DNA of 27,092 nt from positions 1 to 27,092 of IMG/VR virus record IMGVR_UViG_3300028883_000120, one strand, 5' to 3'. Made by a program: the position numbers and the translations under genes. Source of the stretch: a virus. The notes under the pieces were generated by a model. The model made no database searches. It was given only the letters and a program-made list of their open reading frames with translations, and had not been told where the DNA came from. This document shows positions 7,503 to 27,004 of the stretch, in pieces. Every line of letters begins with the position of its first letter. The first letter of the stretch is position 1.

Positions 7503-8140
7503 TATCTCCGTATTTGCTCTTCCCAGTCGGCGGACGGGTAAGTCTTCTCATCCCAGTCACCGAAGTGGTAGGTCAGTTCATCCGATGCGGTAACCTTATC
7601 CTGCAGGTATCCGGTGGTATCGCATACCCGGTCGGAGACGTTTACCGTATCGGTCATATAGTCTTTCAGGTCGTTCACCCGGTCGCTGGCATTGATGGTA
7701 TCGGAGAAGTTCTCACTCAGCTGGCTGGAAGCATCTGTTGCACCAACACCAGAACTGAACATCTGCACCATATCAGAGTGAGGTGTCGTCAGCCCGCTGT
7801 CGGTGTATAGGTCACCGAACAGGTCCACATACAGGGTATGGTCGGCGCTGCCGGTAATGGCGGTCCGGAAGGTGATGGTGTAGGTCTCACCGCCGCTGGT
7901 CACATCGACCTTATAGCCGGCGGGGATGTCAATATCAGCATCGATGGATTGGATAAACAGGATCAGCTCCTCGGCGGATGCCGGAGCAGCGCCGTCTGAA
8001 AAGCTGTTCTCAGTGTCGAAGATGTGTCCGGCATTGGTGGCGCCCAGGTAAAAGGTAATCTGCCAGGCGCGGCCTTCACCACCGTTGGTAGACTGGATGG
8101 AAGCATCACTGATGTCAGTTAGCTCTAAGGGAGCAGGCAT
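7502..8140 (-). CDS. Small structural protein with SD-rich tandem repeats, 212 aa
   Basis: The frame is open from 8242, but that part overlaps the endonuclease gene. The ATG at 8140 has GGAG eight bases upstream and begins MPAPLELTDISD. Residues 1-130 form a beta-rich domain. Residues about 143-195 hold three imperfect repeats of about 18 residues with the core (S/T)xxxNxSDxV (SDTINASDRVND, TDTVNVSDRVCD, QDKVTASDELTY). The protein ends in an acidic, Trp-containing segment (WDEKTYPSADWEEQIRR). SD-rich repeats of this sort occur in phage tail and decoration proteins. It lies between adaptor-type genes, so a neck or tail-tube role is likely. Overlap with the endonuclease 3' end is 26 nt. Confidence 0.6.
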   Translation of the reverse strand: MPAPLELTDISDASIQSTNGGEGRAWQITFYLGATNAGHIFDTENSFSDGAAPASAEELILFIQSIDADIDIPAGYKVDVTSGGETYTITFRTAITGSADHTLYVDLFGDLYTDSGLTTPHSDMVQMFSSGVGATDASSQLSENFSDTINASDRVNDLKDYMTDTVNVSDRVCDTTGYLQDKVTASDELTYHFGDWDEKTYPSADWEEQIRR

Positions 8141-8897
8141 TTCTTGGTCTCCGTATTTGCATTTTAGAGTAGTCCCACTTCGCACGGATGTCAGGATCGA
8201 AAGCAGTGTAGCCTTTGTGGTGTTTCCTGGTTCCATTGACAACCATCCGGATAGCGCTACCTTCGATGTTGTTCTCCTTACAGTAGGCTGGTAGATCCAG
8301 TATGGTCATCGGAATACCGTCAGGTGTAATAACAGGCCAGGGTTTCGCTTCGTAGTGGTTGATACCAGACTTCTTGGCCCGGGTCTCCGGGTTCTGCCAG
8401 CACCTCTTAATCTTATCAGCGGCTTTGGCTCGGACTGCCGGGTCTTTGTAGTATTCCCTAATACCAGCTGTTACTGCTTCATTACGAGTGGCTTGCCACT
8501 CCGGATCGTTATAATACTTCTGTCGTGACTCTACTCCACGGCGGTAAGACTCAGGAGTGCCGGTAGCCACTGGGGCATTCGCATAGGGTGCTATGTTGAA
8601 AAGGCCTTTCCATCCATAGTGGCTGGAATAGGCCATTATCCACATCTGTTCCATATCCACCCGGATGTCCCGTGGGATAGGAGTCGGGCTGCCCATCAGA
8701 ACACTGAACTTAAAGGCATCAGCACCATACCTATTCCAGGCACACTGTAGGTGTGGGTTATGGTGCTTCTGTTTATTCAGTGTGTTGATGTGTTCTTTCA
8801 GCCGGTGTCTGAGGTTCTTCGAACTGCCAACATAGAACTTACCATTGGCAGTGCATTCGATAAGGTAGACTCCTGACTTACATCCGTTGAGAGCCAT
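8115..8897 (-). CDS. GIY-YIG homing endonuclease (second copy), 260 aa
   Basis: This is a site-specific DNA endonuclease expected to spread its own gene by cutting endonuclease-free alleles. The GIY-YIG domain is at residues 9-100: GVY (9-11), YVG (22-24), an Arg-rich helix (LRHRLKEH) and a late Glu (DMEQMW). Residues about 118-185 are repeated basic YYxDPExR segments like NUMOD3 DNA-binding modules. The last 60 residues are one NUMOD1-like module (LDLPAYCKENNI...RMVVNG) ending DYSKMQIRRP. AAGGA seven bases upstream supports the ATG at 8897. The last codons contain the ribosome binding site of the following structural gene and overlap it by 26 nt. It is clearly related to the copy at 9969-10727. 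Confidence 0.9.
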   Translation of the reverse strand: MALNGCKSGVYLIECTANGKFYVGSSKNLRHRLKEHINTLNKQKHHNPHLQCAWNRYGADAFKFSVLMGSPTPIPRDIRVDMEQMWIMAYSSHYGWKGLFNIAPYANAPVATGTPESYRRGVESRQKYYNDPEWQATRNEAVTAGIREYYKDPAVRAKAADKIKRCWQNPETRAKKSGINHYEAKPWPVITPDGIPMTILDLPAYCKENNIEGSAIRMVVNGTRKHHKGYTAFDPDIRAKWDYSKMQIRRPRNACSLRAN

Positions 8898-9397: not shown

Positions 9398-10006
9398 TTA
9401 TGCTCCTGGTTGATTGGTAGCAATAATGGTTTTGATCTTGGCATAGGCATCATTCTGAACGGAAGCTGCCAGGGCGGCATTGCCACGCTCGGTGGACATT
9501 AATGCGGCGAAGGCCAGCTCCACTGCGATGTCGTTAATGTCTTCCGGAAGGTCGGTAACGTCAGACGTGCCACCACTCTCCGAAAGGTCTGCCGGATATG
9601 CATAGTAGTTAAAGGTGCTGGACTCTGAGGTTACCGGGAATGCATAAAACTGACCGGCCTGGATGAAGTAGTATTTGTTCTCCGTGCCAGGAGCTGTGTT
9701 CAGGTTTCTGGTCAGGTTAGGCAGAAGTACCGGATCGATCATCGTTGCTTGAACAGAGTCTATTAATGTATAGCCGGATGGATATACTTCCAGATAGTTG
9801 GAAGGTAATACACCTTTACCGGATTCGATGTTAATGTCAGCCGTGGTTAGCAGGTTAGGAAACAGCCGCTTAGGGAGAATACGAGACATCTCCCGACGGG
9901 CAGCGTTCACTTCTTTGATGATCTCAGTGTCAGCATAGCTGGTATTTGAGGTGTCAAGCTGATCTAACTTATAACGTATTCTGTTGATGGCTTGATTGGC
10001 AGTCAT
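9398..10006 (-). CDS. Head-tail adaptor (gp4/gp6-like connector), 202 aa
   Basis: ATG at 10006 is preceded by AAGGAG at eight bases, and that site lies inside the end of the upstream endonuclease gene (38-nt overlap). The N-terminal helical segment (NQAINRIRYKLDQLD), the acidic helix (DTEIIKEVNAARREM), the beta-rich middle with many Tyr residues (NKYYFIQAGQFYAFPV), and the C-terminal Ala-rich helix (VELAFAALMSTERG) followed by DAYAKIKT are the usual pattern of phage adaptor proteins that dock onto the portal. Position just after the capsid gene (once the endonuclease is ignored) supports this. The family-level call is good; the exact ring position is inference. Confidence 0.7.
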   Translation of the reverse strand: MTANQAINRIRYKLDQLDTSNTSYADTEIIKEVNAARREMSRILPKRLFPNLLTTADINIESGKGVLPSNYLEVYPSGYTLIDSVQATMIDPVLLPNLTRNLNTAPGTENKYYFIQAGQFYAFPVTSESSTFNYYAYPADLSESGGTSDVTDLPEDINDIAVELAFAALMSTERGNAALAASVQNDAYAKIKTIIATNQPGA

Positions 10007-10727
10007 TCTGTGGTCTCCTTAATTGCATCTTAGAGTAGTCCCACTTTTGACGGATAAGAGGATCGGCGGAGGTCCAGCATAAATGGTGACGCTGTTTACC
10101 GTGGATAACCCGGTCAAGAGCAGCCTGCTGCAGTCCATTCTCCTTGGCGAACTTGGTAACATTGACAACGTGGACGATGTTGCCGTCCGGGTCACAAAGG
10201 TCTGCTTCGCTGGCATTTATCATTGGCTTGCTATAGTCAAACTTGGCACGAATCTCAGGGTCGGCGACGGTCCAGCCGAGGTGATAGCGATAATCCCCTC
10301 TGAGGACTGCTTTAACGCCATTACTATTGAGTCCGTGCTTCCTGGCAAACTGGTCTATATTAACGAAGCGATGGGTCTTACCCTTCGGATCGATAAGATA
10401 GCGGTCTGTCTGTCCTTTACGCTGGCTCCCGGGTGCATAGGGAGACGACGCAGTGCGCTTGATGTTAAAGAGGTTCCCCCATTCAGCGGTATCAATCCAG
10501 AACTGTTCGATGGCATCGAGGTCTTCGGGGTTATATACTTCCTCTACTACTTCGAACTTAAAGGCTTCTCTGCCATACTTATTATAGGCTTTCTGTAGAT
10601 GATCGTTGTTATGGGTCTGCTTCCTTAACGTATACAGGTGATCCTTGCGTCGCTGCATAAAGTCAACAGTCTGACCAATGTATCGTCTGCCGTTTGCTTC
10701 ACAGGTGATTTGGTAAATGCCGGTCAT
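9969..10727 (-). CDS. GIY-YIG homing endonuclease (first copy), 252 aa
   Basis: The frame extends to a GTG at 10748, but that codon lies in a stem-loop. The ATG at 10727 begins the domain exactly (MTGIYQITCEANGRRYIG) and is preferred. GIY is at residues 3-5 and YIG at 16-18, followed by the Arg-containing helix (QRRKDHLYTLRKQ), a KYGREAFKFEVVE strand and a catalytic-type Glu (DAIEQFW). The C-terminal half holds two copies of a roughly 60-residue NUMOD1-like module, each with an 'FAxxxGL' helix-turn-helix and ending (A)DPxIRxKxDYSK. It is inserted between the major capsid gene and the adaptor gene, and its last codons (MQLRRP) contain the adaptor gene's ribosome binding site. Confidence 0.9.
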   Translation of the reverse strand: MTGIYQITCEANGRRYIGQTVDFMQRRKDHLYTLRKQTHNNDHLQKAYNKYGREAFKFEVVEEVYNPEDLDAIEQFWIDTAEWGNLFNIKRTASSPYAPGSQRKGQTDRYLIDPKGKTHRFVNIDQFARKHGLNSNGVKAVLRGDYRYHLGWTVADPEIRAKFDYSKPMINASEADLCDPDGNIVHVVNVTKFAKENGLQQAALDRVIHGKQRHHLCWTSADPLIRQKWDYSKMQLRRPQNDCQSSHQQNTL

Positions 10728-10746
10728 ATTCTTATCCGTAATATAC

Positions 10747-10777
10747 ACACAGGGCCTGCGTGGTACAAGCCCTGTGT
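10747..10777 (-). terminator. Stem-loop just downstream of the capsid gene (possible attenuator)
   Basis: Nine-base-pair perfect stem (ACACAGGGC with GCCCTGTGT) and a 13-nt loop, 18 nt past the capsid stop. There is no clear U-run after it (GTATATTA), so it may be a weak terminator or an mRNA 3'-end stabiliser that lets capsid mRNA accumulate relative to the endonuclease behind it. Confidence 0.55.
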
Positions 10778-16768: not shown

Positions 16769-16918
16769 TTACTTTAGCTTAATTCGATAGATGTCGGCCA
16801 CCATCCGGATATACCAGGGCGGTTGTTTCTCCGGAAAGGGGACGGTGGTCAGCTTGCGGAGAGCTGCCTGCTGCTGTTTGGCGTCTTCAATCAGTTGCTT
16901 CTGCTTCTGGTCTTCCAT
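16769..16918 (-). CDS. Small Gln/Lys-rich phage protein, 49 aa
   Basis: ATG at 16918 overlaps the stop of the upstream gene by one base (TGATG), and the TAA ends 11 nt before the terminase small-subunit start. The N-terminal half is a charged Gln/Lys helix (QKQKQLIEDAKQQQ), the second half Pro/Trp-containing and basic (PWYIRMVADIYRIKLK). The junctions suggest it is translated. Function unknown. Confidence 0.6.
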   Translation of the reverse strand: MEDQKQKQLIEDAKQQQAALRKLTTVPFPEKQPPWYIRMVADIYRIKLK

Positions 16919-17388
16919 CAGGATACCTCCTCTGCGAATGCGTAGGCCATTGCTCTGGCGTCTTCAAGGGTCTTGACTTTGAAGTCCTTCGGGTAGCGGC
17001 CCAGCAGGACATCACCCATCTTGACCGTATCGCCGATGGTAAAGGACTTGATACCTTTGGGGCCCCAGCCATACCAGGCGTTGCGTTGTTCTGAGAAGCC
17101 GACGGTGCAGACCGGGATGTCTACATCTTCACGGAGCTGGGGTCTGATCCCGCGGACGACACACAGTTCGTGAGCTGTGTTAGGCTCGCCGATGTATTCG
17201 CTGGTGTCGCTGGTGTAGGCGCTGACCATTCGGGGGTTCAGTGTGCCGAACTTGCTGAGGTCAATCAGTTCATAGCGAACATCATAACCGGGGAAGTGTT
17301 CAATATCGTGGACTTCAATCACCGGCATCGGCGACTTGAGTCCAAGTTCTTCGAGAGTGGTGGGGAATTCTACATACTTCTTATACAT
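16918..17388 (-). CDS. Conserved-type phage protein of unknown function, 156 aa
   Basis: AGGAGG lies nine bases before the ATG at 17388, a strong start. The sequence is globular with mixed beta content and carries a WYGWGPKGIKSFTIGDTVKMGD segment near 110-131. I associate that WxGWxxxxIxxFxIGD pattern with small uncharacterised phage proteins, from memory only. No catalytic motif is recognised. It is the second of three small genes between the nuclease-like protein and the terminase, coupled to the 49-aa gene by TGATG. It may belong to takeover functions carried at the head of the late operon. Confidence 0.55.
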   Translation of the reverse strand: MYKKYVEFPTTLEELGLKSPMPVIEVHDIEHFPGYDVRYELIDLSKFGTLNPRMVSAYTSDTSEYIGEPNTAHELCVVRGIRPQLREDVDIPVCTVGFSEQRNAWYGWGPKGIKSFTIGDTVKMGDVLLGRYPKDFKVKTLEDARAMAYAFAEEVS

Positions 17389-17430: not shown

Positions 17431-18066
17431 TTATGCATCCAGTCCGTGTTGGACTCGGATTAGTCCGGCGTAGTAGGTCTTCTTACCTACCTTTACCGGG
17501 TAGAATACCGGGTTAGTAAACCAGGCGTCGACGGCCCGGACGATATCTTCGCCGTAGCCTTTGACCTTGTAGCTGTCATCCGGACAGGTGTAGTTGTAGC
17601 AGACGACATAGAGCCGGTGTTCAGCGGTCTGGCGTTTACTCTTTATGCCGGCCTTCTCATAGTAGCGTTTGACAAGGGCGGCGTCATCAGGGACGGTGAT
17701 CCATTTGGCGGCCATCTTCCGGTATTCAGCCAGCAGGGGAGTGAGCTTCAGGTCTACCTTCAGCTGTTTGCCCTGGTAGTCCATCGTGAAGTCAACATTG
17801 CGGTCAGTGGAATTGGGCCAAAGGCGGCAGCCGGGTAGTGTGGTTATGTAGTCCAGCAGTGTATCGTGGGTTTGGATATTAAACCAGCGATAGGCTGCAT
17901 AGTCAATCAGTTGCTGCGAATTGGGGTCATCCTTGAACTCTTCGGCGGCAAACCGTCTAACGGCTGCTTCATCAGGGGCGGTATAGATCCAGCTGTTCAT
18001 TCGGGTGTCGATCTTGTAGTCCTGAAACTGAACCCACTGTGGGGCATTAGTGGTTATGGTCCACAT
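17431..18066 (-). CDS. Putative PD-(D/E)XK-like nuclease, 211 aa
   Basis: The frame opens at 18081, but GGAG nine bases upstream favours the ATG at 18066, overlapping the HTH gene's end by 20 nt. A restriction-fold pattern is visible: NSTDRNVDFTMDYQGKQLKV with Asp 91, then VDLKLT with Asp 104 and Lys 106. Spacing and the hydrophobic strand before DxK fit PD-(D/E)XK enzymes. Other parts are Tyr- and Lys-rich with LYVVCYNYTC as another strand. Such small nucleases in phages may serve recombination, host DNA breakdown or packaging. The active-site assignment is by eye from one protein, so this is inference; the gene itself is well supported. Confidence 0.55.
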   Translation of the reverse strand: MWTITTNAPQWVQFQDYKIDTRMNSWIYTAPDEAAVRRFAAEEFKDDPNSQQLIDYAAYRWFNIQTHDTLLDYITTLPGCRLWPNSTDRNVDFTMDYQGKQLKVDLKLTPLLAEYRKMAAKWITVPDDAALVKRYYEKAGIKSKRQTAEHRLYVVCYNYTCPDDSYKVKGYGEDIVRAVDAWFTNPVFYPVKVGKKTYYAGLIRVQHGLDA

Positions 18067-18391
18067 CTGGGAGGTCTCCATCGATTGAATGGAACCGCTC
18101 CCAGGCGATTGCGATACGTTTGAGTTCCCGACTGACGGTAGACTGGTCTACCTCAAGGTCGAAGGCGATCTCACACTGGCTGTACCCCTCAAGGGTCTGG
18201 TCCAGTATGGTCTTCTGTCGGGGAGATAAATGGTGTGTAAAGGATTCCAGGTCCAGCTGGAAGTCCATATCATCGGTAGGGTCGTAGCTCAAAAGCTCAA
18301 TGACCTTACGGCTCCAGGTGTCGCCGGGGGCAGCGACACCGGAGTTGATGATGGTGGGGTCGTAGTTGTAGGTGCGCTTCTTGGTAGACAT
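18047..18391 (-). CDS. Sigma region 4 / LuxR-like HTH regulator, 114 aa
   Basis: Residues about 55-93 (SPRQKTILDQTLEGYSQCEI then VDQSTVSRELKRI) form the helix-turn-helix common to sigma-factor region 4 and LuxR-type domains: the SPRQ opening, a 'GYSQxEIA' turn and 'STVSRELKRI' as recognition helix. The N-terminal 45 residues are polar with no sigma region 2. It may be a phage transcription activator or sigma-like factor for late genes. It is second in the late operon, after a 28-residue peptide whose stop is two bases from its start (TGAGATG). The HTH is clear; the target is unknown. Confidence 0.7.
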   Translation of the reverse strand: MSTKKRTYNYDPTIINSGVAAPGDTWSRKVIELLSYDPTDDMDFQLDLESFTHHLSPRQKTILDQTLEGYSQCEIAFDLEVDQSTVSRELKRIAIAWERFHSIDGDLPDVDHNH

Positions 18392-18392
18392 C

Positions 18393-18479
18393 TCATTGCG
18401 CCCTCCGGACCTGTTTACGGGGAGTAGGCTTTATGACGCCCGGTATCCCGTGTATGACTTTCTTGGCGACGGTCTTCAT
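18393..18479 (-). CDS. 28-residue basic peptide, first gene of the late operon
   Basis: ATG at 18479 has an excellent ribosome binding site (AGGAG, nine bases upstream). The product is strongly basic, with about 8 Lys/Arg of 28, few acids and a hydrophobic GIPGVIKP centre. Its TGA is two bases before the ATG of the HTH gene. It could be a translated leader that couples expression of the HTH gene, or a small nucleic-acid-binding or host-directed peptide. It is supported by the start signal and spacing, not by similarity. Confidence 0.55.
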   Translation of the reverse strand: MKTVAKKVIHGIPGVIKPTPRKQVRRAQ

Positions 18480-18852
18480 ATCGTGTGTCTCCTGTCAGGG
18501 ATTCGGGTGTCGGTTCACCTCAGGTTGGGGAGTCGTCTCTTTGCCCCTCTACAGTAGTTATGTCACGATTGGGTCGGATATTTGGAAAGTATTTGAGAAA
18601 GTTTGTCCTCTCGCAGGGACCCTTGTGATAAGGTTCTTTTACCCCTTACGGGGAGCCGCGGACCCAAAAGGGGCTTTTTACTGCAGGTCGCTGATCAGGA
18701 AACTGTCGGCTAAAGAGCACCTTTCCCGGGGCACAGGCTACGCCAGGGTAGCGTGCAGCGAGCCAGAGTACCTCTACCCCTCTTACAGCGGACTCGTTTA
18801 TCCTGACTGGCATACGGATTGCAGATTTGTACCTAACTGACAGGTTAACCCC

Positions 18853-18905
18853 TATATAGAGTGTGATTGAGAGTGCTGAAAGCCAACTCAATCGAGTTCT
18901 ATATA
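18853..18905. promoter_or_regulatory. 53-bp interrupted dyad with TATATA in both arms
   Basis: Arms TATATAGA (18853-18860) and GATTGAG (18865-18871) are mirrored exactly by CTCAATC (18887-18893) and TCTATATA (18898-18905). A 15-nt centre lies between them, with 4-nt gaps between sub-arms. Each arm places a TATATA -10-like box facing outward, toward the leftward late operon and the rightward genes. It may be a symmetric operator/divergent promoter, or a long RNA hairpin. -35 matches are weak. Confidence 0.55.
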
Positions 18906-18996
18906 ACTACTTTAGGATACCGGGACAGGATTATCAAGCTGTTGTTCTCAGGTTGGCAGGTGGTTAAGGGATCGAGGTATTTTATCGATTAGTGAA

Positions 18997-19039
18997 TTAG
19001 CCGTCCGCTTTAGGGTCGGCCGTCCGCATTCGCGGCTAA
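18997..19039. other. Hairpin with internal repeated GCCGTCCGC
   Basis: TTAGCCG (18997-19003) pairs with CGGCTAA (19033-19039) across a 29-nt interior, in which GCCGTCCGC is repeated (19000-19008 and 19019-19027). It could be an RNA stem or a protein-binding site. Confidence 0.4.
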
Positions 19040-19103
19040 AGGTTTAATACTCCACCGCCATCGGTTCAGATGTCCGCTGAGCCCAACCGCCTGCGCAGCA
19101 GCT

Positions 19104-19144
19104 GGGGTGAGCCACGCAGTGGCGAGGGGCGAGGAGCCCCTATG
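19104..19144. repeat. Two-hairpin element, copy A
   Basis: GGGGTGA is followed by hairpin 1 (GCCAC, loop GCA, GTGGC; 19111-19123) and hairpin 2 (GGGGC, loop GAGGA, GCCCC; 19126-19140), ending CTATG. Copy B, 131 nt to the right, has the same plan with different but still paired stem bases. There is no U-run after hairpin 2, so it is not an intrinsic terminator. Confidence 0.65.
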
Positions 19145-19234
19145 TTTTACCCCCTGCCGAAAACATTAGACGAAGTTGTAAACCTTAAGGCGACGGCCAA
19201 TGCTTCAGTAGTATACCAACTAATCGATATAGCG

Positions 19235-19276
19235 GGGGTGAGCCGCGTTAGCGGCGAGGGGGCAAGGCCCCCTATG
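19235..19276. repeat. Two-hairpin element, copy B
   Basis: GGGGTGA leads into hairpin 1 (GCCGC, loop GTTA, GCGGC; 19242-19255) and hairpin 2 (GGGGGC, loop AAG, GCCCCC; 19258-19272), ending CTATG as in copy A. Against copy A, an A-T pair in stem 1 is replaced by G-C and stem 2 gains a pair, so base pairing rather than sequence is kept. Confidence 0.65.
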
Positions 19277-19301
19277 GTCTACCCGGGTGTGAAGCGTTTG
19301 T

Positions 19302-19332
19302 CACTTATGCTATAGGTTATATGTCCTGCCCA
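19302..19332. repeat. 31-bp direct repeat, copy 1
   Basis: It begins CACTTATGC and contains CTATAGGTTATATG, ending CCTGCCCA. It matches copy 2 at 30 of 31 positions. TTGTCA, a good -35 match, lies just ahead of and overlapping copy 1 but is not in copy 2. It may be a promoter, iteron or regulator site. Confidence 0.7.
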
Positions 19333-19362
19333 GAAGGCCAGTTTGAGGCGGGTAAGGTTTAC

Positions 19363-19393
19363 CACTTATACTATAGGTTATATGTCCTGCCCA
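19363..19393. repeat. 31-bp direct repeat, copy 2
   Basis: Sixty-one bases to the right of copy 1, with one difference (A for G at the eighth position). The shared CTATAGG resembles the initiation core of T7-family promoters, but only over seven bases. Confidence 0.7.
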
Positions 19394-19431
19394 AACAGGG
19401 GTCTATGGTAGTGGTTTAATTATCTCTCCTT

Positions 19432-19452
19432 TTCGGTATTCAGACTACCGAA
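19432..19452. other. Hairpin, 7-bp stem
   Basis: TTCGGTA (19432-19438) pairs with TACCGAA (19446-19452) around a 7-nt loop. It lies shortly after the second direct repeat. No U-run follows, so it is more likely a leader structure or binding site than a terminator. Confidence 0.45.
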
Positions 19453-19663
19453 GCGTGTTAATATCTAAACCGGATGACTGTATGGGTATTGCATACTCAC
19501 GTATCAGAATGGCATACGGTCAGTTGCCAGGGCGAATTAGCCTAAAGTCACCAACTATTTTACTCTATCAAGCCTATAGCCTTGATATTGAGACAAGAAA
19601 GTTTCCCCAGAGTCCCGAATATCAGCAAAGATCTGACACATCTGGTACAGAAGGAGACGAGTG

Positions 19664-19729
19664 ATGAAGTTTAACAGACCGGACAGCAAACTATTTCATT
19701 TAGTTCCTGAATATGTGGGGCATTCGTGA
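19664..19729 (+). CDS. Possible 21-residue leader peptide
   Basis: ATG at 19664 has AAGGAG seven bases upstream, one of the better ribosome binding sites in the region, and ends in TGA at 19727. It starts MKFNRPDSKLF. It lies 140 nt before the 437-aa gene, with a strong hairpin between the two. It may be a regulatory leader; it could also be chance. Confidence 0.3.
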   Translation: MKFNRPDSKLFHLVPEYVGHS

Positions 19730-19778
19730 CATAACTAAGGTGAAGCGAGAGAAACCGCTTCGTCTCCATAACTGGCTG

Positions 19779-19801
19779 GGTGCCGGCTCGCTACCGGCAC
19801 C
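19779..19801 (+). promoter_or_regulatory. Leader stem-loop ahead of the 437-aa gene
   Basis: GTGCCGG (19780-19786) pairs with CCGGCAC (19794-19800) around a 7-nt loop, extendable by one G-C pair. It ends 69 nt before the gene start, and no T-run follows. It may be an mRNA leader structure or protein-binding site. Confidence 0.45.
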
Positions 19802-19869
19802 TGGATATAAAGCCTGGAAGGAGACTATAACAGAAGGACAAGGAACTAAACAGTCTATGGAGACACACA

Positions 19870-21183
19870 ATGAAACGAGACACCGGATATAAGAACGAAG
19901 TGAGAACAATCTTCCACCATAGAAAGCTGACCCTGAGTGACGAAGGTATCGATACCCTGGTGCGCTGGTCAATGATGAACGGCATTCCGATGAAGCAGCT
20001 GATAAGGGCTATCTGGATTCAGCATTACCGGCCGGATACCAACACCGGTGGATTCTATTACGTTATTCGGGAAAAGGTAATGAACCGGTATACCGAGCTG
20101 AAGCAGCAGCCGGTCAATGATTTGGCCGCAATGCCCCGCTATCGCCGTGGCGCATCAGACCGTCCCACCTTCCTGGGTGCCGACATACAATATATCGCCG
20201 ATAGTCTTCGCCAACTGATGGACGATCCGGTTGCCCTTGCAATCTACTGGCTGGCGGTCAAGAAGGTAATCCGGTCGGTATCCGATGCCGAAACCAATGA
20301 CACTGAACTGGGTAACCAACCGGAGCTGAGACATCTGGTCGACGGCAGCGAGATGCACCTTATTGCTGATGTAGATGCATCCAACGTGGAAGTCACCCTT
20401 CCCTATAACTACATTCAAAAGTGTATTACAGCACGGGAATCTACGATCAACCGCGCCTGGAAGAAGCTGCAGGAGATGGGCCTCATTGTCCTGACTCAGA
20501 GTTATGTGCATTTCACAAGTTCACAAACTAAGCGGGCTGCCAAATACCGGCTCCCGGGACTACAGCTAAGTCCATACCTCAGCTGGGATTGCGTCTACAG
20601 TTTGGAAGACGCACTGACTTATTTGCAAACCCCTGATCACTTAATTATAAATAAGGGTGCGGACATCAAGGGACAGCGACAGGTAACCATTCGGATGATC
20701 CGGATGCTGAAGCACACCCTCAATATGACCTATTCCCAGATCGCTGACTACTTCAATCAAAGACACCTTTTGACCCCACGGAGCCTTACCTGGAACCGCA
20801 AGTCAGTCCAGAATTACTGGCTCCGCCACGGGACACAACAGAACTTCTCTCATCAGGAAGAATCTCTCAGCCCCGCAGTACCCACTCCTGTACCGCCTTC
20901 CTCAACCCAACCCCAGTTACCATCCTCAGAGCACCCTGCTCCGACTCCGGCAACCGCCGGATTTGACTATGACGGCCACGCGGCCTTTAGCATAGAAACT
21001 GGTTCGGTTCAACCAGTAAACTCCACGGCTTCCGGTTACAGCAGACCGGAGGCCCAGACTATAATACCTTTCACTCATAGATGGTTGTCTCCTCAACCAA
21101 CACAGCTGGCGGGTGAAGCTCCACCCGCTGGCTGTATATATTACCCTGACTCCCGGGTATATACTGAATACTGTTACATATAA
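19870..21183 (+). CDS. DNA-binding protein with two HTH regions and a Pro-rich tail, 437 aa
   Basis: ATG at 19870 has GGAG seven bases upstream. Residues 1-130 are helical and basic. Residues about 173-229 look like a winged helix: VTLPYNYIQKCITARESTI, then WKKLQEMGLIVLTQ and a basic wing ending YRLPGLQL. This resembles phage or plasmid replication-initiation proteins. Residues about 270-320 (MLKHTLNMTYSQIADYFNQR, then LTPRSLTWNRKSVQNYWLRH) resemble the DNA-binding segment of large serine recombinases, but no resolvase catalytic domain is present. Residues 325-437 are Pro/Ser/Thr-rich. It sits next to the structured control region, so an initiator or master regulator acting there is plausible. 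No named family is claimed. Confidence 0.7.
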   Translation: MKRDTGYKNEVRTIFHHRKLTLSDEGIDTLVRWSMMNGIPMKQLIRAIWIQHYRPDTNTGGFYYVIREKVMNRYTELKQQPVNDLAAMPRYRRGASDRPTFLGADIQYIADSLRQLMDDPVALAIYWLAVKKVIRSVSDAETNDTELGNQPELRHLVDGSEMHLIADVDASNVEVTLPYNYIQKCITARESTINRAWKKLQEMGLIVLTQSYVHFTSSQTKRAAKYRLPGLQLSPYLSWDCVYSLEDALTYLQTPDHLIINKGADIKGQRQVTIRMIRMLKHTLNMTYSQIADYFNQRHLLTPRSLTWNRKSVQNYWLRHGTQQNFSHQEESLSPAVPTPVPPSSTQPQLPSSEHPAPTPATAGFDYDGHAAFSIETGSVQPVNSTASGYSRPEAQTIIPFTHRWLSPQPTQLAGEAPPAGCIYYPDSRVYTEYCYI

Positions 21184-21932: not shown

Positions 21933-21984
21933 CCTTTAGATGAATGTTATAGGTGGCTTGTGAAAGAAATGGCATTCAAGGGGT

Positions 21985-22010
21985 CAGGGGTTCGAATCCC
22001 CTCAGCTCCA
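21985..22010 (+). other. attP core: 3' end of a tmRNA (ssrA) gene
   Basis: A T-arm (stem AGGGG, loop TTCGAAT, stem CCCCT; 21986-22002) is followed by the 7-nt acceptor strand CAGCTCC and discriminator A. The acceptor CAGCTCCA is that of bacterial tmRNA, whose 5' strand is GGGGCTG. No tmRNA body precedes it, so it is a 3' fragment carried by the phage to restore ssrA after integration. The tyrosine integrase begins 142 nt to the right. Confidence 0.8.
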
Positions 22011-22082
22011 CAGGTTTCACACTGCAACTCTTGCAATAACGTCACTTCGCTCACAGGTCACATAACTATAATAAAGTGATCA

Positions 22083-22118
22083 GGTGTTCATTCGGGCCAA
22101 TTCGGTCAATTGAACACC
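22083..22118. promoter_or_regulatory. Inverted repeat before the integrase gene
   Basis: GGTGTTCA (22083-22090) and TGAACACC (22111-22118) are perfect 8-bp arms around a 20-nt centre that itself repeats TTCGG. It lies 34 nt before the integrase ATG. A repressor, excisionase or integrase arm site is likely. Confidence 0.5.
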
Positions 22119-22151
22119 CAAACCCTTAATTATACTTATGGGGGCTGTTAT

Positions 22152-23973: not shown

Positions 23974-24618
23974 CTAAGGTTTACACACCTTACACGGTTT
24001 ATACCCCTTTTTCCTCGCCGCCTCCGCCGACTCAAACCGGATCAGGTTCTCCGGCTTAATCCGCTTCGCCCACTTACAACTGGGGCGGTGATACTTATCA
24101 GAGTTCTTAGAAGCGACTACGGGGCCGGTGTCATTCCCATCACCACTTTCCTTGGGGAGGTACAAGTCAGATGGGTTGTCCTGGCCCCATAGTCCTTTAT
24201 CGTGTTCCCTGGCATAGCGCTGGGCTGCCAGGAATTGGTCTTGATATTTGACATTGGGCGGGTAGGTGGCTACCCGGGCATATCCCTCTTTGACGAGGTG
24301 CTTATTGAAAAATAGTGTATCTATGTATACGTATGCTAGGAGGCGGCCATAGCGGTCGCGCTCCTGGACATCGAATTCAAGACGGATGGTTTTACCTTCG
24401 AGCATCTCCCGGGAGAAGGCAGAGGCTTGGGGGCCGAAATACTCAACTCCTTTACGGGGGTGTTTAGTCTCGGGGGTATCTACTCCAATGAGGCGTACTT
24501 TCTCACCGGAAGAGATGACGAAGGTGTCGCCGTCGACGACTCTCGATACTCGGGTATTGGACTGAGCAAAGAGAAGTGATATGAATACAATGATAAATAT
24601 AGGTGATGAGTATCTCAA
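23974..24618 (-). CDS. Secreted staphylococcal-type nuclease with C-terminal zinc-binding domain, 214 aa
   Basis: Hydrolyses DNA/RNA using calcium (family knowledge). The start is a TTG at 24618 with GGGA upstream; no ATG precedes the domain. Residues 1-19 form a signal peptide (SSPIFIIVFISLLFAQS) with likely cleavage after Ala18 or Gln19, so it acts outside the cytoplasm. The SNase domain has Asp29 (VVDGDT), Arg42, Asp47, Thr48 and Glu50 (RLIGVDTPE) and Arg92 in DRYGRLLAY, all key residues. The tail (172-214) has His177, Cys181, Cys209 and Cys212 in the Ada-like HxxxC...CxxC pattern (KPCKVCKP). It lies in the restriction operon, 19 nt after the endonuclease gene. Confidence 0.88.
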   Translation of the reverse strand: MRYSSPIFIIVFISLLFAQSNTRVSRVVDGDTFVISSGEKVRLIGVDTPETKHPRKGVEYFGPQASAFSREMLEGKTIRLEFDVQERDRYGRLLAYVYIDTLFFNKHLVKEGYARVATYPPNVKYQDQFLAAQRYAREHDKGLWGQDNPSDLYLPKESGDGNDTGPVVASKNSDKYHRPSCKWAKRIKPENLIRFESAEAARKKGYKPCKVCKP

Positions 24619-24637
24619 CGACTTTCCCTATTTGGGA

Positions 24638-25468
24638 TTAAAAGCCAAATGATAATGCATCAATCATATATTTACTTTTAGTCCGCCCAACTTCCTGATA
24701 GATCTCAAGAACTTCTGTGAAAGTGTTCTCAGTTCCAACTATTGACCAAAACTCCTGTCCAATTATAACAGCTTGCTCAAATGGAGTATACATCTTTGCG
24801 AATGACCATTTATAGTTGGATTTATCTGGCCCATACGGATTATAAGCCATAGAGAAGTAAGCCTGAACCTTGGGCCTTTTCATTCCGCGGAGTAGGTGAA
24901 ACCTGAGAATCCTTTGTATGACCTCTAAGCACTGTCCTTTATTTGGCTTGGGTGATTTCATTTCAAAGTAATACTCTGTTCCATCCTCTGCCAAGATATA
25001 AAGGTCTGCCCGAGCATTTCTGATTTCACGGGTCTCAGCTATATTGTGTTCGAATACCGCATCGATCATTTCCGTCAGGGAAGGTTTGATCAACCTGTCA
25101 TCTGCAGCACGTTCAAATACGGAGATTTGGTGCTCAATTTCAGCGATGGCGTCTAAACTGATTTCACCTACAAGATCGTAACTTCGGACTGCCTCTTCGT
25201 GGTGTTCCAAAGCTACGAGGCGGGCAACCTCTTCAAAGGTGGTCCCAAGTTTTGTACTAAATCCACGCTCAAAAGCATTGATTCGCATTAACTGCTCAGG
25301 TATAATTGCAGCGTGGAATGGTTTTAATGCGCCACTACTGGATCTGTTTTGAAGATACCTTTCTGGTGTATCGAGCAACGGGAGTTTCTTTTTACGATAC
25401 TCATTTACAATTTGATCGATAAATGCTTCAAGATAACCTTTAATCGCTGCGGCTGTCTTCGCTTCCAT
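24638..25468 (-). CDS. Type II restriction endonuclease, TdeIII/MjaII family, 276 aa
   Basis: Cuts unmethylated DNA. Named members of the family (TdeIII, MjaII) recognise GGNCC; that this one does is inference. GGAGG lies 11 bases before the ATG. Family blocks are visible: GFSTKLGTTFEEVARLVALEH (69-89), the PD-(D/E)XK site RADLYILAEDGTEYYFEMKS with Asp155 and Glu169-x-Lys171, PNKGQCLEVIQRILRFHL, YFSMAYNPYG, and EFWSIVG near 240. Length is usual for the family. The gene follows its methyltransferase by 24 nt in the same operon, so methylation is made first. Active-site residues are all present, so the enzyme should be functional. Confidence 0.88.
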   Translation of the reverse strand: MEAKTAAAIKGYLEAFIDQIVNEYRKKKLPLLDTPERYLQNRSSSGALKPFHAAIIPEQLMRINAFERGFSTKLGTTFEEVARLVALEHHEEAVRSYDLVGEISLDAIAEIEHQISVFERAADDRLIKPSLTEMIDAVFEHNIAETREIRNARADLYILAEDGTEYYFEMKSPKPNKGQCLEVIQRILRFHLLRGMKRPKVQAYFSMAYNPYGPDKSNYKWSFAKMYTPFEQAVIIGQEFWSIVGTENTFTEVLEIYQEVGRTKSKYMIDALSFGF

Positions 25469-25492
25469 AATAGCAGTTACCTCCGTTATTAG

Positions 25493-26737
25493 TTAGGGTT
25501 TTCGCCATACAAATATCGATTCGTAAAACTCAGTTGATCTTCTTCCGGTTCTTCTATTTACGTGCCGTTGGATTATGCTTTCAACTTCTAATCCGGCACC
25601 CTCGGCAATAGAGTCATATAGATTGTGGCGGTCACCAGCGATTACAATGAATCGGCTCCCAGGTTTTACGGAGTTTGCTGCATTCTTAAATACGGTAGTG
25701 ATATCTTCTTGGTATTTCAAACGGGCATTACCATTTGCTCCATTTGATGCCGGCCCGATCTCTTTCTCCCTTTGATCCTCCAGATTCAGCAGATGATATC
25801 CATATGCGTGCTGTTCGTGATAGTCTATTAAGCCGACGTAAGGAGGACTAGTGATTATTCCATCGAAAGCTGGAAAGGATGCCGTTCGACTATCTTCATT
25901 GAATACTTTGACATCTGCTTTGGTTCTAAGCATCGAATACTCTTTAATTCGTCGGAGTGTGTCTACACTATAACGCCGTATGAATTTATATGCTTCCTTA
26001 GTCGGTCGACACATCCTTGAATGTTTGTAGCACCAGTATTCATTTGTCACTGGTTTCTTAGGGAAATCAAGATCGAAGTGAGTAGTCTGCCTTGCGGATC
26101 TAGCAGACCTGGATAGGATGATCTTCATCACGTCTGCATATTTATACGATTGTGTCTCAATAAGATTGTGGTATAGGAGTAGTTCCTTTAGGGCTTGTGG
26201 GGCGAACCAGGTTTTAAGATATTCGTTGTCCGTGTCGGTATTAGTATGTAATGAGGGGTCAAGTTCTTTGATCTCTTCAAACTGAAGTTCGTTTGAGAGT
26301 TTGCCAATCAGGCCTCTGAGTTTCTCGATACTGTCCTTGACTTCTTTATCTAATAAGTCAACATCATATTCAGCTGTTTTGACCTGTGATAGGAGGACAT
26401 TAAACTTTGAGATATCATACCCGATTGAATGAATGTTCAATTCATTTGCTTGAACAAGAGTAGTCCCGGAGCCGCAAAATGGGTCGAGCACTGTCTGTTT
26501 TGGCTTGAAGTACTTTCGGAGGAATATCTCTACCAACTGGGGTATATACTTCCCGAGGTAGGGATGTAACCTATGAACGTGCTTTGTCCGTTCACGTTCA
26601 GGTAAATCTTTCTCTCGCCAATTCAGGTTTAAACTGTCAAGGGGTGTTTCGTTGTTAACCAACTTGGGATCAGTCGGCTTATTGTTCTGGGCATAATAGA
26701 CTACCCTTTTCTCTTCATTAGTTAAAGTCCGACTCAT
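25493..26737 (-). CDS. DNA methyltransferase (N4-cytosine type) of the restriction system, 414 aa
   Basis: Protects sites of the cognate endonuclease. S-adenosylmethionine site DPFCGSGTT at residues 85-93 and catalytic TSPPY at 296-300; (T/S)PPY is usual for N4-cytosine methylases. The long middle (about 110-285) should contain the target-recognition domain. Motif I before motif IV gives an alpha-like order. The frame extends in-phase to a GTG at 26944 through a hairpin and repeats, but the ATG at 26737 (MSRTLTNEEKRVVYY) is the likely start. A promoter fits 39 bp upstream; the ribosome binding site is weak. First gene of the four-gene cassette. Confidence 0.88.
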   Translation of the reverse strand: MSRTLTNEEKRVVYYAQNNKPTDPKLVNNETPLDSLNLNWREKDLPERERTKHVHRLHPYLGKYIPQLVEIFLRKYFKPKQTVLDPFCGSGTTLVQANELNIHSIGYDISKFNVLLSQVKTAEYDVDLLDKEVKDSIEKLRGLIGKLSNELQFEEIKELDPSLHTNTDTDNEYLKTWFAPQALKELLLYHNLIETQSYKYADVMKIILSRSARSARQTTHFDLDFPKKPVTNEYWCYKHSRMCRPTKEAYKFIRRYSVDTLRRIKEYSMLRTKADVKVFNEDSRTASFPAFDGIITSPPYVGLIDYHEQHAYGYHLLNLEDQREKEIGPASNGANGNARLKYQEDITTVFKNAANSVKPGSRFIVIAGDRHNLYDSIAEGAGLEVESIIQRHVNRRTGRRSTEFYESIFVWRKP

Positions 26738-26775
26738 TTGCAATCCAAGTGGTATTGTAGTAAACGGAGTACTGA

Positions 26776-26805
26776 AATATAAGGCGTGAGGTTGATACCA
26801 ATCAA
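26776..26805 (-). promoter_or_regulatory. Methyltransferase promoter with overlapping dyad
   Basis: On the minus strand TTGATT (26805-26800), an 18-nt spacer and TATATT (26781-26776) give a good sigma70-like promoter about 39 bp before the ATG. TTGAT-TGGT-ATCAA (26792-26805) overlaps the -35 and could be an operator for self-regulation. Confidence 0.55.
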
Positions 26806-26822
26806 GTGCTTTATTAATAACA

Positions 26823-26848
26823 AAGCCACCCCATCTATAGGGTGGCTT
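26823..26848 (-). terminator. Terminator between the right-edge gene and the methyltransferase
   Basis: Nine-bp perfect stem (AAGCCACCC with GGGTGGCTT), 8-nt loop, followed on the minus strand by TGTTATTAA, a modest T-rich tail. It would end the upstream leftward transcript. Confidence 0.65.
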
Positions 26849-26866
26849 CAATCTTCGATCCAGGAG

Positions 26867-27004
26867 GGACAGTCTGTCTGGGAGAGACAGTCTGTCTGGG
26901 AGGGGTGGTCTGTCCCTAACGGACACTCTGACTGCCGGGGACACTCTGACTGCCGGGGACAGTCGGACTGCCGGGGTCGGTCGGACTGCCGGGGTCGGTC
27001 AGGG
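26867..27004. repeat. Array of 18-bp tandem repeats
   Basis: Seven consecutive 18-bp units (26867, 26885, 26903, 26921, 26939, 26957, 26975) plus a partial eighth. Units 4 and 5 are identical (GGACACTCTGACTGCCGG), 1 and 2 nearly so, 6 and 7 close, and 3 divergent. Units 1-2 carry the odd palindrome GACAGTCTGTC and unit 6 CAGTCGGACTG. It lies between a terminator and the end of the next gene. Confidence 0.85.

Follow-up and report, generated by a model that had tools for sequence, protein, structure and literature searches.

Phages and ICEs are known to carry antitermination elements that consist of RNA only, among them the put RNAs and canT of Tn916 (PMC11658703). In phage HK022, put is present in two copies, each made up of two stem-loops parted by one unpaired base (PMC9378689). 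It is about 70 nt long with two long, bulged stems, occurs once per early operon and acts on RNA polymerase via the β′ zinc-binding domain. The ANTAR element is also a dual hairpin, both loops of which are hexanucleotides with A1 and G4 (PMC3369931), while the dispersed repeats termed REPs are marked at their foot by GTAG or CGTC (PMC3733652). Here we compare with these systems a double hairpin that occurs twice in the control region of a phage. What is observed is a pair of copies with conserved pairing, a non-coding setting and a design as in a dispersed terminator-like element of Rhodobacterales. We tentatively propose, at rather less than even probability, that the copies are a duplicated RNA-level terminator- or pause-type element acting in a rightward transcript from this region.

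The phage record and its control region

The window, by which we mean the whole stretch of DNA analysed, comprises the 27,092 bases of an IMG/VR virus record from a poorly known phage, whose proteins have distant relatives only. It encodes an integrase and a leftward structural operon with a P22-like portal, terminase and major head protein. Between this operon and a rightward gene for a 437-aa protein lies a control region of 1,478 bases (18392-19869). A previous reading of this DNA, made from the sequence only, had called the region gene-free, and codon statistics bear this out: measured by the codon usage of the phage, its open frames lie between −0.14 and −0.42 bits per codon and the genes between +0.03 and +0.58, and Pfam returned nothing above the curated cut-off in the five of six frames searched. 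A hidden gene at 19070-19315, which would span both copies in frame, was rejected on its negative codon score. A decayed IS with terminal repeats was likewise rejected, there being no transposase remnant in five of the six frames and no clear target duplication. DNA relatives of the control region were found in neither phages, plasmids nor IMG/VR, which makes homologue-based covariance within a phage family impossible.

Elsewhere in the record, the product of 16918-17388 is homologous to Tad6, which inhibits type I Thoeris defence (Pfam PF25188, E = 9e-26). Two GIY-YIG homing-endonuclease-like genes lie among the structural genes (8115-8897 and 9969-10748) and share a 67-nt stretch at 81% (8133-8199 and 9999-10065). 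Lower-GC DNA near the integrase gene (23974-26944) encodes a DNA methyltransferase, a restriction endonuclease of TdeIII type and a nuclease of staphylococcal type that carries an Ada-like metal-binding domain.

Fold of the two copies

Both copies occupy 54 nt of the + strand, copy 1 at 19100-19153 and copy 2 at 19231-19284, as placed by fold prediction and by self-BLAST of the window, in which 19100-19152 aligned to 19231-19284 at 77.8% identity (E = 3.4e-4). Hairpin 1 of copy 1 has a 5-bp stem (19111-19115 with 19119-19123) and is followed by a single unpaired G and by hairpin 2, with a 6-bp GC stem (19125-19130 with 19136-19141). Copy 2 repeats this plan, with 5 bp in hairpin 1 (19242-19246 with 19251-19255), an unpaired G19256 and a 7-bp GC stem in hairpin 2 (19257-19263 with 19267-19273). 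The core of each copy is thereby 31-32 nt long, with short perfect stems and predicted loops of 3-5 nt, and hairpin 2 has a pairing probability of 0.99 in both. The two adjacent hairpins had been correctly placed by the sequence-only reading, but a third helix was overlooked, which closes copy 1 (19104-19110 with 19147-19153, pairing probability 0.63) and has a possible weak counterpart of 5 bp in copy 2 (19236-19240 with 19280-19284). Given this helix, the predicted repeat unit may be a three-way junction. Folded in isolation, the copies reach MFE z-scores of only −2.7 (copy 1) and −1.7 (copy 2).

The two changes between the stems that had been pointed out are both present, and pairing is kept in each. 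The A-U pair 19114-19120 of copy 1 corresponds to the G-C pair 19245-19252 of copy 2, and stem 2 of copy 2 has one G-C pair more than that of copy 1. To see in this the mark of selection on a structure goes further than the window allows, because just two sequences with one compensated pair are weak evidence for a selected structure; added support comes only from the Rhodobacterales look-alikes described below, kinship with which is unproven.

The plan of the copies recalls HK022 put. Acting in this way, they would be cis-acting RNAs that bind RNA polymerase so that it ignores downstream terminators, and that the control region of this phage contains two of them, each with two stem-loops and a single unpaired base in between (PMC9378689), is consistent with such a role, as is the existence of RNA-only elements of this kind in phages and ICEs. 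However, the length of the core and its short perfect stems differ from those of put, both copies lie on one strand rather than one in each operon, sequence similarity between put and the phage copies was not found, and blastn gave no meaningful match in the phage collection. Antitermination of the put type thus seems to us very unlikely. An ANTAR dual hairpin was rejected, as the loops of 3-5 nt are not hexanucleotides of the ANTAR kind. Directly before the 437-aa gene, at 19742-19825, there are two further adjacent strong hairpins, whose size comes closer to that of put RNA than the size of the copies does. No other spot in the region folds as well (z = −5.6 on the + strand and −4.8 on the − strand).

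Terminator-like features and look-alikes in Rhodobacterales

It had also been stated that both copies lack a U-run and are not ordinary terminators. The first statement holds for copy 2, whose tail is ATGGTCT, but is doubtful for copy 1, where a partial T-run, ATGTTTT, follows directly. Copy 1 was flagged as terminator-like by a consensus scan and is the sole such site of the region, where shuffles yield 1.5 by chance. The second statement is weakened, since the nearest outside sequences are terminator-like and one of them has a clear T-run, and copy 1 itself has a partial one. Compared with an intrinsic (rho-independent) terminator, hairpin 2 of both copies has the expected GC-rich hairpin but not the expected position behind a same-strand gene, as the gene upstream of the copies (18047-18391) is on the − strand.

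These outside sequences came from a search with the pattern of the element, which matched gene-transfer-agent-like records of Rhodobacterales-style sequence and one Sinirhodobacter contig. In the Sinirhodobacter genome, GGTGAGCC-N-GGCGAGGGG-N-CCCC occurs at about 45 places and the reversed-pattern control at none. The pattern was present in 5 of 398 sampled Pseudomonadota genomes, all five of which recur in the Rhodobacterales draw. When 19 distinct outside versions are aligned with the two phage copies, the inner stem pairs covary (GC 12, CG 7, AU 1) and 98% of cells in this alignment are paired, a value that none of 500 shuffles reached. A covariance model built from the Rhodobacterales elements only scored the phage copies at 53.5 and 39.9 bits and the next site in the window at 7.7 bits, figures which, like those of the pattern, overstate the phage match because the collection pattern was derived from the window and the match is partly by construction. 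Among 120 Pseudomonadota genomes, the model gave matches above 33 bits in only two, both in the Rhodobacterales draw.

A less biased check is provided by BLAST of copy 2 against plasmids, for which the best E-values were to Paracoccus (7e-3 and 0.09). One Paracoccus copy ends in TTTTCTTT / CCCCTTTTCTTT, a standard terminator with a clear T-run, and another is located 47 nt past the nrdH stop. Several Rhodobacterales elements adjoin gene ends, with T immediately after hairpin 2. The multicopy two-hairpin, terminator-like element of Rhodobacterales reads AAATATCC-GGGGGTGAGCC...GGCGAGGGGGC...GCCCCC (e.g. locus L036, 3760-3815); a published name for it was not found.

The phage itself is probably not from a Rhodobacterales host, judging by its sequence. 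The probable att site is the 3′ half of a tRNA-Ala(GGC) at 21969-22010, adjoining the integrase gene, and its T-arm and acceptor had no exact match in 100 sampled Pseudomonadota genomes; in Rhodobacterales there were two-mismatch matches only, in 7 of 61 genomes. The portal gave two weak matches among 299 Pseudomonadota genomes, at 26-28% identity, and both host searches covered Pseudomonadota only. Relatives of the restriction enzyme were uninformative as a host clue, with a single distant match on a Vibrio plasmid.

These host signs also bear on whether the copies are a stray dispersed host repeat, REP- or terminator-like, that was acquired by the phage and has no function in it. The copies, like REPs and BIMEs, are short GC-rich palindromes repeated in intergenic DNA, and their wording matches that of the dispersed Rhodobacterales element, as would be expected of such a stray. 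Against this, the host signs do not favour Rhodobacterales, the flanks carry neither the GTAG nor the CGTC tag and no RAYT transposase was recognised in the window. The sequence-only reading had named a common host REP as the finding that would overturn it; in a scan of 84,980 species, the exact wording together with the CTATG tail was found as one stretch in one species, and it is not high-copy in any species scanned. We consider a stray host repeat highly improbable.

Other repeats and large-scale structure of the control region

Outward-facing repeats of 52 bp stand at both ends of the control region (18555-18606 and 19686-19737). Their 12-bp core, GTSACATAACTA, is found again shortly before the integrase gene (22057-22068) and is oriented alike with respect to that gene. 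Three transcription units are preceded by this core, which faces the gene in every case and is likely to be a common operator or promoter, a simpler reading of this sequence than an RNA one. Between copy 2 and the right-hand 52-bp repeat there are direct repeats of 37 nt (19296-19332 and 19357-19393), 92% identical and spaced by 61 nt; both contain CTATAGGTTATATGTCCTGCCCA and a −10-like box, TATRCT, and are possible tandem promoters or operator sites. An imperfect 38-nt inverted repeat at 22053-22148 overlaps the integrase start, and a 22-nt inverted match at 91% links 22067-22088 with 20628-20649.

That other repeats of the region resemble protein sites would suit a role of the copies at the level of DNA, in which the hairpins are incidental or act as DNA and the repeats bind protein for promoter control or for replication start near the 437-aa gene. 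However, the differences between the copies retain pairing, and the 437-aa protein matched no known family and no replication family above chance, its AlphaFold model (pLDDT 38) being too poor for use. On balance, this account is rather unlikely to be right.

The 52-bp repeats can also be viewed as the closing helix of a much larger RNA. The + strand of 18550-19742 is predicted to fold as a single closed domain (MFE z = −4.2 over 60 shuffles) in which most helices have a probability above 0.75 and 43% of bases are in pairs of P ≥ 0.8, a fraction above 20 of 20 shuffles and 40 of 40 control folds; the − strand is average in this respect. There are 6 perfect stems of at least 10, whereas shuffles give 0.6 and no control window exceeds 3, and the mismatches of the closing helix are 6 G-U to 1 A-C. 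Within this segment, copy 1 sits at the tip of a predicted local RNA-like domain of 247 nt on the + strand (18983-19229), which is built on helices 18983-18993/19219-19229 (11 bp, perfect) and 19000-19024/19169-19197 (about 24 bp) and has an MFE z of −3.5, with 1 of 100 shuffles as low on either strand.

The copies would then be sub-modules of one structured RNA of about 1.19 kb, closed at its ends by a long helix and of the GOLLD/ROOL size class, which might serve as a stable RNA scaffold or RNP. The bounds were chosen from the fold itself, however, and the closing repeat is readable as a pair of outward-facing DNA elements. Because z falls to −2.35 when the closing repeat is left out, within the range of control windows and no better than some coding windows, and because the 12-bp core was found upstream of the integrase gene, we no longer place such an RNA first and regard it as an unlikely setting for the copies. 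On this reading the segment would resemble GOLLD and ROOL in being phage-encoded, gene-free and extensively structured by prediction; it differs from them in having no tRNA island and no Rfam covariance-model match, with only chance matches even at a loose threshold, and a homologue of the region was not found. That 18550-19742 is one structured, phage-encoded RNA of about 1.2 kb, which represents a class absent from Rfam and has the double hairpins as repeated modules, appears distinctly unlikely. Should the segment be a single stable RNA, a new family would join the small set of giant phage RNAs whose function is unknown, and a defined sequence would be at hand for testing.

A possible tandem terminator or pause element

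The terminator or pause reading is the one that we favour, and it could operate as follows. Rightward transcription through the control region would carry both copies into RNA, where the small hairpin directly before the GC-rich hairpin would pause or terminate RNA polymerase. A tandem pair about 130 nt apart could then insulate the divergent operons from each other or act between them as an attenuator. Stray or premature transcripts would be kept from the rightward operon of the 437-aa gene until a signal lets the polymerase pass.

That both copies fold as described, with stem changes that retain pairing, is consistent with this model, as is the position of the outside look-alikes just past gene ends with T after hairpin 2. 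Set against it are copy 2, which has no U-run, and copy 1, whose scan match is at chance level; moreover, upstream of the copies there is no rightward gene that needs a terminator. The AAATATCC-like block is missing, signs of a host among Rhodobacterales or other Pseudomonadota are absent and the look-alikes were found by a window-derived pattern.

Comparison with known systems

The closest likeness is to the Rhodobacterales element, GGGGTGAGCC-N-GGCGAGGGGC-N-GCCCC, which has near-identical wording to the phage copies, including the unpaired GGTGA and GA, and the same two stems. The Rhodobacterales elements are preceded by a AAATATCC-like block and lie behind genes, whereas the phage copies have neither this block nor a strong T-run and stand in tandem in a control region, and the phage is without visible Rhodobacterales ties. 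Because there is no Rhodobacterales host sign and the block is missing in both copies, we speak of the same design and not of membership; kinship is unproven and not claimed. The double hairpin is a real element that had been correctly described, ordinary in kind and unusual in its tandem setting. If it is terminator- or pause-like, it would represent another case of tandem hairpin control in the early/late switch region of a phage, employing a design that is also used many times in Rhodobacterales genomes.
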